From an uncultured Actinomycetes bacterium (lineage in GTDB: Bacteria; Actinomycetota; Acidimicrobiia; Acidimicrobiales; RAAP-2): 56,206 nucleotides of DNA. The stretch covers positions 1 through 56,206 of the forward strand of contig CAIQEU010000009.1 of assembly GCA_903870905.1 (NCBI GenBank), read 5' to 3'. A model generated the notes under the pieces. The model saw only the letters and a list, made by a program, of their open reading frames with translations, had not been told where the DNA came from and made no database searches. The position numbers were made by a program, and so were the translations under genes. Below, piece by piece: positions 9,811-55,403 of the stretch; the first letter of the stretch is position 1, and the number at the start of each line of letters is the position of its first letter.

Positions 9811-9872
9811 ACGTTGCGGAGGGTTCTGCGTCCCTCGGGGCGATCAGTGGGTGCTGGTAGCGTGGGGGGACC

Positions 9873-10772
9873 ATGAGTGGCTCGGGACGGTTCGGAACGG
9901 TTGTGACGGCAATGGTCACGCCGTTCACGAGTGACGGTGCCCTCGACCTCGATGAGGCGGCCCGCTTGGCCAAGGCCCTCGTGGCCAGTGGTTCTGATGG
10001 CCTCGTGGTGGCTGGAACGACCGGCGAAGGCTCGACCCTCACCGATGACGAGAAGTTGGACCTCTTCGCTGCAGTCGCCGAGGCGGTGACCGTGCCCGTA
10101 CTCGCTGGTTCGACGTCGAACGACACGCCGCACTCGGTGAACCTGTCCGCTCAAGCGTCGACCACCGGCGTCGCTGGGATCTTGGCCGTCTGTCCGTACT
10201 ACAACCGGCCGAGCCAACAGGGCATCGCCGCCCACTTCGCCGCCGTTGCCGACGCCACACCCCTCCCCGTCGTGCTCTACGACATCCCGGCTCGAACGGG
10301 TCGACGTGTTGGCCCAGCAACAGTTGCAGCCATCGCCGCTGGCAGCGCCAACGTCGTCGCCGTGAAGGATGCCTCTGGTGACCTGACGGCTGCCGCATCG
10401 TCGATCGCTGCGCATCACGGTCGCCTCGAGTGGTACTCGGGCGACGATTCACTCACCTTGGCCTTCGCTGCGCTCGGCGCAGTGGGTGTCATCTCAGTGG
10501 CCTCCCATTGGGCGGCCGAGGAGTTCCATGCCCTCTTCGACGGTGCAGCACAGGGAGATCTCGCCAGTGCTCGAGCAGCCAATGCTCGACTCTTCGAGTC
10601 CTACAGCTTCCAAGGTGGCGATCAGACCCCCAATCCACTTCCCGCGAAGGCCATGATGCGCACGCTCGGATTCGCTGTTGGTCAGTGTCGCCTCCCCATG
10701 GGCGTAGCAGACCCCTCCCTCGACGCCGAAGCTGCTGGTGTTCTCACTCGTCTGCAGGCCGCCCGTGGCTAA
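9873..10772 (+). CDS. dapA: 4-hydroxy-tetrahydrodipicolinate synthase
   Basis: 299 aa, the usual DapA length. It condenses pyruvate with aspartate semialdehyde, first step of the lysine/diaminopimelate branch. Visible marks are GTTGEGSTLTDDEK (~49-62), the tyrosine in VLYDIPARTG (~137) and the Schiff-base lysine in VVAVKDASGD (~164). TAGCGT (9858-9863) ends 9 nt before the ATG, leaving a leader of only a few nt. The stop overlaps the RNase J start by 8 nt (GTGGCTAA). Four other dap genes lie within 15 kb downstream. Confidence 0.96.
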   Translation: MSGSGRFGTVVTAMVTPFTSDGALDLDEAARLAKALVASGSDGLVVAGTTGEGSTLTDDEKLDLFAAVAEAVTVPVLAGSTSNDTPHSVNLSAQASTTGVAGILAVCPYYNRPSQQGIAAHFAAVADATPLPVVLYDIPARTGRRVGPATVAAIAAGSANVVAVKDASGDLTAAASSIAAHHGRLEWYSGDDSLTLAFAALGAVGVISVASHWAAEEFHALFDGAAQGDLASARAANARLFESYSFQGGDQTPNPLPAKAMMRTLGFAVGQCRLPMGVADPSLDAEAAGVLTRLQAARG

Positions 10773-49430: not shown

Positions 49431-50039
49431 TCAGTCGAAGATGGGACCGTCGGTGCGGCTGCGCTTCAACTCGTAGAAGCCCGGGGTGCTGCAGACGGCC
49501 TTCACGCCGTCGTAGAGCACGCCGGCAGCTTCACCCTTGGGGGCTGGGGTGATGACGGGACCGAAGATCGACGTGTCGCCAATGCGGATGACCGGGGTGC
49601 CGACGTCCATGCCGACCGGTTCCATGCCCGCGAGGTGCGATGCCCGAACGGCGTCGTCGAAGGACGAGTCGTTGGCAGCAGCGAGGAGATCAGCGTCGAG
49701 TTCGGCGAGCTCGAGGGCCCGGCGCAGCGCGTCGTCACCTTCGAGCTTCTCCAAGTGAATGGCGGTGCCGAGTGCGGTGTAGAGGGAGCGGTGCACGTCC
49801 ACGCCGTAGCGCTGCTCGGCGGCGATGGCCAGGCGCACCCCGGACCACGCCTTGGCCATGAAGTCAACGTACTGCGGCGGGAGCTCACGTCCTTCGTTCA
49901 AGACGGCGAGGGACATCAGGTGGAAGTTGGTCGTGACGGGGCGAACCTTCTCGACTTCGAGCATCCACCGTGAGGTGATCCATGCCCACGGGCAGTACGG
50001 GTCGTACCAGAAGTCGACGATTTCTTGGGTTCCAGCCAT
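49431..50039 (-). CDS. DsbA-family protein, mycothiol-dependent nitroreductase-like, CPWA active site
   Basis: 202 aa. Strong overall resemblance to mycobacterial Rv2466c, a mycothiol-dependent disulfide reductase/nitroreductase: VDFWYDPYCPWAWITSRW, FHLMSLAVLNE, GVRLAIAAEQ, VGTPVIRIG, FYELKRSRTDGP. Rv2466c has CPWC; here the second cysteine is alanine (C16-P-W-A19), leaving a monothiol site. The cis-proline segment VGTPVI is intact. It should still form mixed disulfides with mycothiol but not an internal disulfide. GAGGAGGA precedes the ATG. Confidence 0.88.
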   Translation of the reverse strand: MAGTQEIVDFWYDPYCPWAWITSRWMLEVEKVRPVTTNFHLMSLAVLNEGRELPPQYVDFMAKAWSGVRLAIAAEQRYGVDVHRSLYTALGTAIHLEKLEGDDALRRALELAELDADLLAAANDSSFDDAVRASHLAGMEPVGMDVGTPVIRIGDTSIFGPVITPAPKGEAAGVLYDGVKAVCSTPGFYELKRSRTDGPIFD

Positions 50040-51514: not shown

Positions 51515-52474
51515 TCAGAGTGAGGCCGTCAGTTGGATGGGGGAGATGCCGTCTGGCAGGACGTCGGTTGACCGCACAATTTCTTTCATGGCTTCAACGA
51601 CCACTCGAGTCGATGCAGCGGGAAAGCCCCGTCGTCGTACGGCAACACCTACGGTCCGATGGGGTGACGTCTCGAGAGGAATGGCTGCGAACCCTGCCCG
51701 AATGTGCTCCGGGATTGCGGACGCGGGGATGATCGCTGGACCGTGGCCATCGAAGGCCAAGCTGGCCAACATGCGAATGCCTTCGAGCTCAATGAGCGGT
51801 GTCAGTACGACGCCTGCGGGGGCAACCGCAGCGTCGATTTGCTCTCGAAGTGTCGTGCCCTTGAGCGGCAGGAGCAACTCAATCGTGCTGAGTTCTACCA
51901 ACGGGACCGGGTCGTAGTGGACGCCCTTGCGGTCCTTGCTGCGATGGGCGGTGGCGAGCGCGCTGTCTCGGGTGGTGACGAGGCAGAGGTCTTCTTGGAA
52001 GAGAGGGAACGAGTCGATGTCGCTCGAGGGGATGGGGAGGTTGACGACGGCCACGTCCAACGTGCCATTCTCCAGACCGGCCTCGAGCGTGGAGTTCGTT
52101 CCTTCGAGGACTTCCAAGCGGACGTTTGGGTGGTGGTCTCGGATCACGGCGAAGAGGATGGGGACGAGCCACCGACCGGTCGTGCCGATCATTCCAACGC
52201 TCACGACTCCCGAGACACCGCTCTGGAGGGCGATCACGTCGTCGACGATGGCATCGACCTCCATCTCGATGCGTTGCGCTCGCTTGGCGACCGCTTCGCC
52301 GACCCTCGTGAGCCGTCCAGTTGAACGGTCGATCAACGTGGCATCGAGGGACGCCTCGAGCGCCTTGATACGGCTCGAGATGTTGGACTGCACCGTGCCG
52401 AGGGCCCTCGCCGCTTCAGAGAAGCTGCCGTGGTCGCCAATTGCAATGAGTGCTTGGAGCTGCTTGAGATCCAT
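51515..52474 (-). CDS. LysR-family transcriptional regulator
   Basis: 319 aa. The N-terminal winged helix (~1-60; LQALIAIGDHGSFSEAARALGTVQSNIS) is classic LysR, and residues ~90-300 form the inducer-binding domain beginning VVSVGMIGTTGRWLVP. GGAGGTGAGGT precedes the ATG at 52474. LysR proteins usually control a divergent neighbour; here the divergent unit is the 6C-like RNA and murT, or it may control the M20 gene 29 nt downstream on its own strand. The effector is unknown. Confidence 0.9.
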   Translation of the reverse strand: MDLKQLQALIAIGDHGSFSEAARALGTVQSNISSRIKALEASLDATLIDRSTGRLTRVGEAVAKRAQRIEMEVDAIVDDVIALQSGVSGVVSVGMIGTTGRWLVPILFAVIRDHHPNVRLEVLEGTNSTLEAGLENGTLDVAVVNLPIPSSDIDSFPLFQEDLCLVTTRDSALATAHRSKDRKGVHYDPVPLVELSTIELLLPLKGTTLREQIDAAVAPAGVVLTPLIELEGIRMLASLAFDGHGPAIIPASAIPEHIRAGFAAIPLETSPHRTVGVAVRRRGFPAASTRVVVEAMKEIVRSTDVLPDGISPIQLTASL

Positions 52475-52534
52475 ACCTCACCTCCACTCCTCACCCTATC
52501 TCTAAATTAGATGGAAAGTATTTCGAGAAACGAG

Positions 52535-52562
52535 TTGACTGATAGGACAATTCCCGTACAAT
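52535..52562 (+). promoter_or_regulatory. Strong promoter of the 6C-like RNA
   Basis: TTGACT (52535-52540), 16-nt spacer, TACAAT (52557-52562). This is the closest to sigma-70 consensus in the window and places the transcription start near 52569. Confidence 0.75.
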
Positions 52563-52568
52563 TGTTTC

Positions 52569-52680
52569 ATCGCCGGAAACGGCAAGTAGTACCAAGGATT
52601 GACCGAACCCCCCCTCGGATCTCCTTGAGATAAGACGAGAGGATCGCCTACCCCCCCCAGGCGGTCCTCTTGTCGCGTCT
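52569..52680 (+). ncRNA. 6C-type small RNA (two hairpins with poly-C loops)
   Basis: Two consecutive hairpins carry C-rich loops. Hairpin 1: CAAGGA (52593-52598) / TCCTTG (52622-52627) and CCGA (52603-52606) / TCGG (52615-52618) enclose a loop of A plus seven C. Hairpin 2: a 16-bp stem, 52634-52649 with 52659-52674 and two G-U pairs, encloses A plus eight C. Two stem-loops with at least six cytosines each is the definition of the actinobacterial 6C RNA motif. A consensus-like promoter stands just upstream. The RNA's function is not established; the 3' end is approximate. The murT start lies 44 nt further on, with its own -10. Confidence 0.8.
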
Positions 52681-52708: not shown

Positions 52709-52714
52709 TAGCCT
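52709..52714 (+). promoter_or_regulatory. -10 element TAGCCT of murT
   Basis: TAGCCT ends 9 nt before ATG 52724, like dapA and ftsK; no Shine-Dalgarno sequence is seen. It implies a murT start separate from the 6C-like RNA. Confidence 0.45.
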
Positions 52715-52723
52715 TCCTGCACG

Positions 52724-53968
52724 ATGGCGCTCACGACCAGGCTTCGACGACGGGTTGCCGTGTGGGGGATGGACCTCGTGAACGCCACTTCTCGAGTGCT
52801 TCGCCGGGGGAGCGGCACCGTTGCTGGGGGACACCTCGCCCTCCGCATCGATCCGAACTTGCTCCGCTCGCTCACCGAGGGGGCCGACGTTGCACTGGTG
52901 AGTGGCACGAACGGCAAGACCACAACGACCGCGCTGCTCACTCAAGCGCTGCGGACCGCGCGCGAGGTGGCGACCAACGACACCGGGTCCAACATGACGA
53001 CCGGCCACGTTGCCACAGCCGCCCATGCAGCACCGAACGCCGTGGTCGTTCTCGAAGTCGATGAGGCCTACTTGGCGAAGACGGCGGTGTGGACGACCCC
53101 ACGAGTGGTGGTGCTCCTCAACTTGTCTCGTGACCAGCTCGACCGGGCATCCGAGGTCCGCATGGTGGCCGAGAAGTGGCGGACGATGTGTTCGACGACC
53201 ACCGCCACGGTGGTCGCCAATGCTGATGACCCGCTCATCGTCTACGCGGCGAGTGCTGCGTCGTCGGTCGTTTGGGTGGCTGCCGGGTCATCGTGGAACC
53301 TCGACGCCGTTGGCTGTCCGAGTTGCGGTGGTCACATCGCCTTCGGTGACGATGGCTGGGCGTGTGGTCACTGTGCGTTTCGTCGTCCGATGCCATCGGT
53401 GGCGTGTCGCGCAGATGACGGTGACTTGGAGGTTGCCCTCGATGGGGTTCTGTACCGACACCCCTTCTCCTTGCCTGGAGCGTTCAACCGGGGCAACGCC
53501 GCCCTCGCCCTCGCTGCCGCCTCGATCCTCGGTGCTGCGCCCGAACAAGCCATTGCGGCGCTCGTCGAGGTGAAGAGCGTGGCGGGCAGGTATAGCCACG
53601 AGGTGGTGGACGGACGACAGGTGTCGCTCCTCCTGGCCAAGAATCCAGCCGGGTGGTCGAGCTTGTTCGAGGTGGTTGCTGGCAATGGTGACCCACTCGT
53701 CCTGTCGATCAACGCCCGCACCGCAGATGGTGCCGACCCGTCGTGGCTCTACGACGTTCCCTTCGAGGTGCTGCGTGGTCGGACGGTGGTCGCCACTGGA
53801 GACCGGCGCCACGACCTCTCCGTGCGCCTCCACTACGCCGAAGTCGACCACGCCGTCGACGACGACCAGCGAGCAGCGATTACACGAGCGGCAACTCCGG
53901 GACGTCCAGTGACCTTCATTGGGAACTACACCGCGTTCGGCGCCTTGGTGGCGGAGGTGCGTGGGTGA
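52724..53968 (+). CDS. murT: Lipid II isoglutaminyl synthase, MurT subunit
   Basis: 414 aa. Mur-ligase fold: P-loop SGTNGKTTTT (~60-69), EVDEAYL near 110 and N-x-x-RDQLDR (~128). A MurT-specific zinc ribbon CPSCGG...CGHC lies near 198-222. With GatD it amidates the alpha-carboxyl of the D-glutamate of lipid II, using glutamine nitrogen and ATP, which makes stem peptides competent for cross-linking. The stop overlaps gatD by GTGA, giving the usual MurT-GatD pair. Confidence 0.95.
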   Translation: MALTTRLRRRVAVWGMDLVNATSRVLRRGSGTVAGGHLALRIDPNLLRSLTEGADVALVSGTNGKTTTTALLTQALRTAREVATNDTGSNMTTGHVATAAHAAPNAVVVLEVDEAYLAKTAVWTTPRVVVLLNLSRDQLDRASEVRMVAEKWRTMCSTTTATVVANADDPLIVYAASAASSVVWVAAGSSWNLDAVGCPSCGGHIAFGDDGWACGHCAFRRPMPSVACRADDGDLEVALDGVLYRHPFSLPGAFNRGNAALALAAASILGAAPEQAIAALVEVKSVAGRYSHEVVDGRQVSLLLAKNPAGWSSLFEVVAGNGDPLVLSINARTADGADPSWLYDVPFEVLRGRTVVATGDRRHDLSVRLHYAEVDHAVDDDQRAAITRAATPGRPVTFIGNYTAFGALVAEVRG

Positions 53969-54669
53969 TTCGCATCGCGGTGCTCTACCCCGACCTCCTC
54001 GGCACCTACGGCGATGGTGGCAACGCGCAGGTGCTCGAGTGTCGTGCCCGCTGGCGTGGCCTCGAGGTAGCCGTCGCCCAGGTGCTGGCAGGAGACGAGG
54101 TGCCCGACGCCGACCTCTACCTCCTCGGTGGGGGAGAAGATGGACCCCAAGCACGAGCTGCCGACCTGCTGCAGCGCGACCGGGGACTGCACCGCGCCGT
54201 TGATCGGGGTGCCACGGTCTTCGCAGTCTGTGCGGGCTACCAAATCCTCGGCCACCACTTCATCTCGAGCGACGGATCGGCCACGCCTGGACTCGGACTC
54301 CTCGACGTTGAGACGGTCCGCACCGATGAGCGCCGGGCAGTTGGTGAAGTGCTCGCCGAAGTCGTCGCACGGGGATGGACGGCTGTTCCTACGTTGACGG
54401 GGTTCGAGAACCACGGGGGCCGGACTCGACTGGGCGCTGGGGTCGAACCGTTGGCCCACGTGGAGTACGGCGTTGGTAACGGTGAGGACGCCACCGAGGG
54501 AGCGGTCGCCGGCAACGTCGTCGCCACCTACCTCCACGGTCCGGTGCTCGCTCGAAATCCGGGGTTGGCTGACGCGCTGCTCGAGCGGGTTGTTGGATCG
54601 CCCCTCGCACCGCTCAACGACGAGCGAATTGCCCTCCTGCGAGACGATCGGTTAGCGCTGCGTCCCTAG
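53965..54669 (+). CDS. gatD: Lipid II isoglutaminyl synthase, GatD glutaminase subunit
   Basis: 234 aa, class I glutamine amidotransferase of the CobB/CobQ type. Nucleophile cysteine in FAVCAGYQILG (~89), histidine in TYLHGPVLARNP (~191), and YPDLLGTYGDGGN at the N-terminus. It releases ammonia for MurT. GTG 53965 overlaps the murT stop. The 3' end overlaps the convergent acyltransferase by 4 nt. Confidence 0.95.
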   Translation: MIRIAVLYPDLLGTYGDGGNAQVLECRARWRGLEVAVAQVLAGDEVPDADLYLLGGGEDGPQARAADLLQRDRGLHRAVDRGATVFAVCAGYQILGHHFISSDGSATPGLGLLDVETVRTDERRAVGEVLAEVVARGWTAVPTLTGFENHGGRTRLGAGVEPLAHVEYGVGNGEDATEGAVAGNVVATYLHGPVLARNPGLADALLERVVGSPLAPLNDERIALLRDDRLALRP

Positions 54670-55403
54670 TCGTCGCTTTCGCTGACCTCTGCGTCATCGG
54701 CGAGCACCGCTCGACCGTTTGACGCAGCGATCACGGCAACTTGGATGAGCGGGGCGAAGCGACGGGCTGTTGCGCCGTCACCTGGAACGAGGGGTGCGCC
54801 AATTGCTACCCGGACATGGTGCCGTCGCAGGAGGTGATGGCGTTCTCCCGGTACGGACTTGGCCAGGATGGCACGGGTGCCGTCCAAGTAGACCGGAACG
54901 ACCGGCACACCAGTCCGACAGGCGAGGAACGCTGCCCCAGGCTTGAACGGTTGCATCCGCCCATCGACCGATCGGCCACCTTCGGGGAAGATCATGAGGT
55001 TCCAACCCTCTTCGATGAGGGTCTGTGCGACGACGGCGGAACGACGATCGATCTTCGTGCGCTCCACGGGAATTGCGTTCAGGGTGAGCGCCCAGAACGT
55101 GGCCTTCCCCTTCTTGTCGAAGAAGTAGTCCGCAGCAGCGGCGATGACCATGTGGTGGGCGAAGCGCCGGGGGAGCCGATTGAGCATCGTGGAGGTGTCG
55201 ACGTGGCTGGCGTGGTTCGCCACGAAGATGCACGGCCCATCGAGGCCTTCTAAGTGGTGGAGACCGGTGACGGTTGCCGGGGCGAACAGGCTGTTGAGCG
55301 GCTTGGTGATTACTTCCAAGAGGACGGAGCGCACGGCCTTGGCCCACGGTTTGCGCGCCCAGTCGTGGTGGAAATCGATTCCGAGACCATCGTGTGCAGC
55401 CAT
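54666..55403 (-). CDS. 1-acyl-sn-glycerol-3-phosphate acyltransferase (PlsC-like)
   Basis: 245 aa. Acyltransferase block I is NHASHVD (H64-x4-D69), block III is FPEGGRS (~131-137), and block IV follows at PVVPVYLDG (~155-163). Such enzymes acylate lysophosphatidate at the membrane for phospholipid synthesis. No clear membrane helix, so peripheral association is likely. GGGGA precedes the ATG. Another acyl acceptor is possible because PlsC-like proteins are numerous in actinobacteria. Confidence 0.88.
   Translation of the reverse strand: MAAHDGLGIDFHHDWARKPWAKAVRSVLLEVITKPLNSLFAPATVTGLHHLEGLDGPCIFVANHASHVDTSTMLNRLPRRFAHHMVIAAAADYFFDKKGKATFWALTLNAIPVERTKIDRRSAVVAQTLIEEGWNLMIFPEGGRSVDGRMQPFKPGAAFLACRTGVPVVPVYLDGTRAILAKSVPGERHHLLRRHHVRVAIGAPLVPGDGATARRFAPLIQVAVIAASNGRAVLADDAEVSESDD

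Follow-up and report, generated by a model that had tools for sequence, protein, structure and literature searches.

The small RNA gene and its hairpins

The window, the whole stretch of 56,206 nucleotides that was analysed, encodes a small, presumably regulatory RNA akin to the 6C RNA of actinobacteria (positions 52569–52680, plus strand). It is located between a divergently oriented LysR gene and the murT-gatD genes. The following features were assigned:

51515–52474, minus strand: LysR-type transcriptional regulator (PF00126 and PF03466), transcribed away from the RNA gene; proposed as its dedicated regulator
52498–52543, plus strand: proposed LysR operator with the invariant triplets ATC (52498–52500), GAT (52510–52512), ATT (52520–52522) and GAT (52541–52543)
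52535–52562, plus strand: small RNA promoter; −35 TTGACT (52535–52540), 16-nt spacer, −10 TACAAT (52557–52562)
52569–52680, plus strand: 6C-like small RNA gene, predicted transcript of about 112 nt; match to model R1 at 52600–52680 (77.6 bits; the sequence belongs to the training set of R1)
52572–52583, plus strand: 5′ mini-hairpin GCCG-GAAA-CGGC, read from the sequence and compared with L002 and L003
52594–52626, plus strand: hairpin 1, AAGGA/TCCTT and CCGA/TCGG, C7 loop at 52608–52614; from the flank-swap test and folds
52634–52674, plus strand: hairpin 2, 15 bp, C8 loop at 52651–52658; from covariation
52709–52714, plus strand: putative −10 region of murT, TAGCCT, 15 nt before the ATG
52724–53968, plus strand: MurT, subunit of lipid II isoglutaminyl synthase; a neighbour, not a conserved partner
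53965–54669, plus strand: GatD; a neighbour

The near-consensus promoter that an earlier note had ascribed to the RNA was borne out: TTGACT-16-TACAAT is the sole σ70-like site within 400 bp (mean of 0.0 in shuffled sequences). The RNA start is predicted 7 nt past the −10 region, and the 3′ end is deduced. A HAD-acyltransferase gene is missing from the window locus, so that murT directly follows the RNA. Past gatD, a stand-alone acyltransferase (PF01553) is encoded at 54666–55403 on the minus strand. A homologue of the mycothiol-dependent nitroreductase Rv2466c (PF22234, 247 bits) is encoded at 49431–50039, also on the minus strand.

Folding of the single sequence gave a z-score of −2.67, and the minimum free energy structure displayed hairpin 2 only, with the first C-run paired with a downstream GGGGG. 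Comparative evidence was therefore required. Using the DNA of the element as query, we found it in two congeners, and reading of the DNA that precedes MurT in other family members added seven further sequences. From the resulting ten sequences, a model (R1) was constructed that contained the structure of hairpin 2 only. In the alignment of 41 matched sequences, including two rows with weak matches on the antisense strand or off target, hairpin 2 was paired in 94% of the cells and showed compensatory changes at 14 of its 15 pairs. Its covariation score of 0.570, compared with 0.215 in shuffles, was reached by none of 500 shuffles. Hairpin 1, which had been left out of R1, was judged by a flank-swap test. 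The native flanks around the C-run folded at a mean of −16.0 kcal/mol, whereas exchange of the right arms between genomes resulted in a mean of −9.9 (sd 0.48, best −11.1; 200 permutations). As hairpin 2 covaries and the native flanks of hairpin 1 outperform swapped ones, both hairpins are real, and the two-hairpin element lies well beyond chance. The two adjacent stem-loops with seven and eight loop cytosines described previously were thus confirmed, with comparative support for their pairing. Hairpin 2 probably acts as terminator as well. The 5′ mini-hairpin showed a compensatory change in the two congeners (GCCC/GGGC in L002 and L003). It is genus-specific, missing from most other relatives, and resembles the first stem-loop of B11.

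Across the order (Acidimicrobiia), R1 found the element in 52 of 134 genera and 63 of 198 genomes; strict filters make the latter figure an underestimate, as several genomes scored as lacking the element carry it beside LysR. Nearly all genomes compared were metagenome assemblies. The distribution is actinobacterial, as judged from the order search and from the LysR-locus records, which mostly come from Acidimicrobiaceae, Acidimicrobiales or actinobacteria. R1 matches outside the order (L150, L151) were dismissed as chance hits; each consists of one hairpin and lacks the paired arrangement, and one lies next to a tRNA. Several genomes of family f16 (G128, G194, G220, G244, G163 and G075) harbor two or three copies of the RNA, which in G163 are just 2.3 kb apart.

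The divergent LysR gene and its proposed operator

The protein encoded upstream of the RNA carries HTH_1 and LysR_substrate domains above cut-off. An NCBIfam search yielded no equivalog at cut-off, the best model being CynR with 122 of 277 bits. A divergent LysR gene adjoins the element in 31 of 39 loci, with the LysR start 81–196 nt from the model match. For the converse test, 80 LysR loci were fetched by protein sequence alone, of which 78 were not truncated at the end of a contig. Two or more C-loop hairpins were present upstream of LysR in 77 of these 78 loci and the central operator in 74, with close variants in three of the other four. Where present, LysR gave one match per genome at E≤1e-40. 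Judged from sequence and gene order, the divergent LysR gene is the conserved partner of the RNA.

Beside the same LysR, three consecutive C-loop hairpins instead of two were observed in L112, L119, L122 and L123; in L119 and L122, a U-rich tail follows the last one. In L124, the LysR-linked RNA (about 165–290 nt from the LysR start) retains the operator but exhibits the altered loops CCCCATTTG and CCCCCATTG. Its third hairpin is devoid of a C run, and a changed seed is possible.

Alignment of 30 intergenic regions revealed the invariant pattern ATC-N9-GAT-N7-ATY-N18-GAT, the last part of which reads TTGAC-N-GAT. In nearly all loci, the centre of the palindrome is located at −54 to −56 relative to the predicted RNA start, whatever the distance to the LysR start. 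A centre near −55 and a GAT over the −35 region fit activation by LysR-type proteins. When 20 carrier genomes were searched for the operator pattern, the RNA promoter was matched in 19 of them, and only six other, scattered places were found; the reversed pattern, used as control, gave 0 matches. In the window's own genome, the single match is at the RNA promoter. The LysR gene, which the earlier note had taken as a hint to the target, is therefore better read as the controller, given the fixed phase between operator and RNA promoter.

A recognisable operator was missing in six of the eight element loci that have no LysR gene next to them. In L042 and L062, the RNA is apart from LysR; the operator is kept, and LysR is encoded elsewhere in the genome. 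In L045, L046, L048 and L050, the RNA has no operator, and no match to LysR was obtained in these genomes. Two loci, L058 and L059, deviate from this pattern: LysR is encoded in the genome, yet the operator is missing, so LysR control is not universal.

The LysR start codon and the first operator ATC overlap in many relatives (L041, L053 and others), which points to a lysR mRNA without a leader and makes autoregulation probable. The LysR start of the window is about 25 nt further off, and the operator ATC is still present.

The oxyR gene of the OxyR-OxyS system likewise lies next to a divergent sRNA gene and encodes a LysR-type regulator. The nearest solved relative of the window LysR is OxyR of C. 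glutamicum (E=1e-18). In contrast to OxyR, the window LysR group has no conserved cysteine across 31 sequences and displays LLPxxGTxxR at the position of the OxyR redox cysteine. A role as OxyR-type peroxide sensor was rejected on these grounds.

Relationship to 6C RNA and alternative readings

The match to 6C RNA proposed in the earlier note stood in part. C7 and C8 loops in two adjacent hairpins and conserved pairing agree with it, whereas the Rfam 6C model (RF01066) scored the element at 20.0 bits compared with a gathering cut-off of 47. A search of the own genome with this model at E≤0.001 gave no match, nor did the loci of 12 relatives even at E≤1. Being below threshold in the window, the own genome and the relatives, identity as Rfam 6C was rejected. 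A covariance score below threshold together with a lack of conserved pairing had been named beforehand as evidence against the proposal; the score was indeed low, but the pairing is strongly conserved.

Applied to 6C loci of the Streptomyces type, R1 matched in register with up to 28.7 bits (E=2.6e-4); other 6C loci scored 15–18 bits, and the best off-target score was 13.6 bits. Directly downstream of the element, many relatives carry a HAD-IB gene, frequently as a fusion with an acyltransferase-like part (14 of 39 loci, none at the window's own locus), in an orientation opposite to that at 6C loci. In six 6C-bearing genomes, the best match to the HAD-IB gene of the relatives was the 6C-adjacent gene in all six cases, with 118–127 bits compared with about 84 bits or less for the next HAD paralogue. 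Mycobacterial B11/6C is located between Rv3660 and Rv3661 (PMC12395582). The in-register matches of R1 and the shared HAD-IB neighbour favour common descent, and the element is probably a 6C-like, diverged homologue of 6C.

The element resembles 6C/B11 in its two adjacent hairpins with loops of at least six cytosines, arranged in the same order, in its own promoter, in the HAD-IB gene that relatives carry beside the locus and, by prediction, in G-tract ribosome-binding sites as targets (PMC10470900). As in B11, whose second hairpin is both terminator and seed (PMC12395582), the second hairpin is terminator-like. The two differ in their hairpin stems and in the HAD gene, which is divergent at 6C, downstream and co-directional in relatives of the element, and lost in the window. 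Moreover, true 6C has no LysR neighbour, whereas the element has a LysR-type operator at its promoter. The alphaproteobacterial sRNAs ar14 and CcsR1, with CCUCCUCCC loops, also have C-rich hairpin loops complementary to ribosome-binding sites. Their models gave 18.5 and 13.2 bits on the element, far below the cut-offs, and they contain CCUCC motifs in contrast to the pure C runs found here.

The C-loop sRNA families ar14 and CcsR1 presumably evolved separately from 6C, and the Acidimicrobiia RNA might likewise have acquired the anatomy and mechanism of 6C on its own. The Rfam score of 20 of 47 bits next to 18.5 bits for ar14 on the same stretch, the failure of the 6C model at 12 relatives' loci, and the differences in hairpin 1 stems and promoter control all point in this direction. 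They are set against the common HAD-IB neighbour, the detection of Streptomyces-type 6C in register by R1, and the same order and spacing of the C loops, which render an independent origin unlikely, if by no means negligible. If the hairpins were C-rich palindromes that had arisen by chance in G+C-rich DNA between genes, the weak signal of hairpin 1 in the single-sequence fold would be accounted for. Covariation and phylogenetic spread have already refuted this reading, and its probability is close to nil.

A cis-acting role, in which the element would attenuate or terminate transcripts of murT-gatD or lysR, was also considered, since the RNA lies 44 nt before murT, hairpin 2 is terminator-like and Rfam labels 6C as Cis-reg. 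This role is very improbable in view of the varying downstream gene, as the first tested gene after the element was MurT in 15, HAD in 14 and others in 10 of 39 loci. The RNA's own promoter in fixed phase and extra RNA copies elsewhere in some genomes also argue against it, as does the −10-like motif of murT itself. In 10 of 15 loci, a TAnnnT motif precedes the MurT start by 12–15 nt; G tracts longer than four were absent. According to these sequences, transcription of murT probably begins at a site of its own, with hardly any leader. The leaderless appearance and the absence of longer G tracts make murT an unlikely target. The suggestion that murT-gatD hints at the target was thus not supported, and the genes were rejected both as target and as cis-regulated genes.

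With a diverged 6C homologue as the preferred reading, Rfam's current 6C model misses the entire Acidimicrobiia clade. In the literature collection that was searched, no paper dealt with both 6C RNA and Acidimicrobiia.

Candidate targets and proposed mechanism

The C-rich loops of mycobacterial B11/6C repress mRNAs via G tracts that lie in the ribosome-binding site or close to it, as substantiated by compensatory mutants (PMC10470900, PMC12395582). The view in the earlier note that the function of 6C is unsettled is therefore partly outdated as far as mycobacterial 6C/B11 is concerned. By analogy, repression through G tracts would be the simplest reading for the Acidimicrobiia RNA.

As the C7 and C8 loops are uninterrupted, uninterrupted G tracts were sought as targets. 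Sites with at least seven G followed by ATG 3–9 nt on (G7-ATG) occurred 158 times in a sample of 18 carrier genomes, compared with 58 times for the reversed-pattern control. Exported proteins were predicted with a home-made rule based on hydrophobicity, and three calls were corrected by hand; on this basis, and as an association among RNA-carrier genomes that does not imply cause, exported products were encoded by 21 of 43 ORF-filtered G7+ genes and by 30 of 360 background genes of the same family (p=3e-10). After homologues had been collapsed, the fractions were 14/33 and 29/309 (p=5e-6). Restricted to the five genomes that supplied the background, 7 of 14 G7+ genes coded for exported products (p=1e-4). 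At G4-6 sites, only 2 of 39 did. G7+ genes included those for binding proteins of the Peripla_BP_6 (several, some below the Pfam cut-off) and SBP_bac_5 types, an ABC permease, a secretory lipase, and S8 and S15 peptidases. The idea that the C loops pair with G-rich ribosome-binding sites gained support from these data, with G7+ sites as a distinctive candidate class.

The own genome contains only four G7-ATG sites, one of them in front of a binding-protein-like gene. This gene, L158, is the clearest case: GGGGGGG AAT ATG is followed by a signal peptide, and the product resembles the binding proteins L160 and L166, with which it was grouped by BLAST; a Pfam search of L158 gave no match. G6 sites of the own genome showed a modest excess (116 versus 70 in the control), too weak for naming targets, and were rejected for this purpose. 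One G6 ribosome-binding site, GGGGGGACCATG at 9864–9875 of the window, precedes a dapA-like gene (L366).

We regard the exported-protein regulon as a strong lead rather than a demonstration. The RNA might be real and its true targets others, the G7 sites of exported proteins reflecting an unrelated habit of translation initiation. The rules of G-U base-pairing permit GGGGG itself to pair weakly with the anti-Shine-Dalgarno sequence. On the other hand, the enrichment appeared at G7+, the length of the loops, and not at G4-6 (21/43 versus 2/39), although such tracts are rare among the background genes, and the targets of mycobacterial 6C/B11 bear G tracts of this kind. An initiation habit is accordingly somewhat doubtful, yet has to be taken seriously.

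The reading that we prefer, and consider fairly probable, combines a dedicated LysR regulator with a trans-acting 6C-like sRNA that represses mRNAs of exported and uptake proteins at G7+ sites. The divergently encoded LysR would bind ATC-N9-GAT-N7-ATY upstream of the RNA promoter and the GAT overlapping its −35 region. Bound there, it would activate, rather than repress, the RNA promoter and probably act as a repressor of lysR itself. The RNA expressed from this promoter, about 112 nt long, would expose C7 and C8 in its hairpin loops, with the second hairpin serving as terminator. Translation would be blocked when either C loop base-pairs with an unbroken run of G at the ribosome-binding site of an mRNA. 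The G7+ sites preceding genes for ABC-transporter binding proteins, secreted hydrolases and proteases would be the candidate sites of action. One metabolic signal would thereby turn down nutrient uptake and secreted proteins, comparable to GcvA-GcvB of enterobacteria.

In that system, the gcvA regulator gene adjoins the gcvB sRNA gene. GcvA, a LysR-type regulator, controls an sRNA that lowers the levels of binding proteins belonging to ABC importers for peptides and amino acids (PMC3658693). The element shares with it a LysR gene beside the sRNA gene; importer binding proteins are predicted targets in the present case. GcvB differs in its length of 206 nt, its Hfq dependence and its G/U-rich seed, and has no known sequence relation to the element.

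Tentatively, the 6C lineage in Acidimicrobiia may form one half of a dedicated switch, in which the only strong operator of a single-copy LysR lies at the sRNA promoter and the sRNA, bearing two or at times three C loops, represses a G7+-marked class of exported and uptake proteins. If true, this switch would parallel GcvA-GcvB as a system of independent origin and would offer a general answer to the purpose of 6C RNAs. 6C is among the most widespread small RNAs of actinobacteria, and its reported targets differ between species. The near-constant pairing with one regulator in a deep branch points to a concrete input, the LysR ligand, together with an operator and a G7+ target class, all of which are testable.
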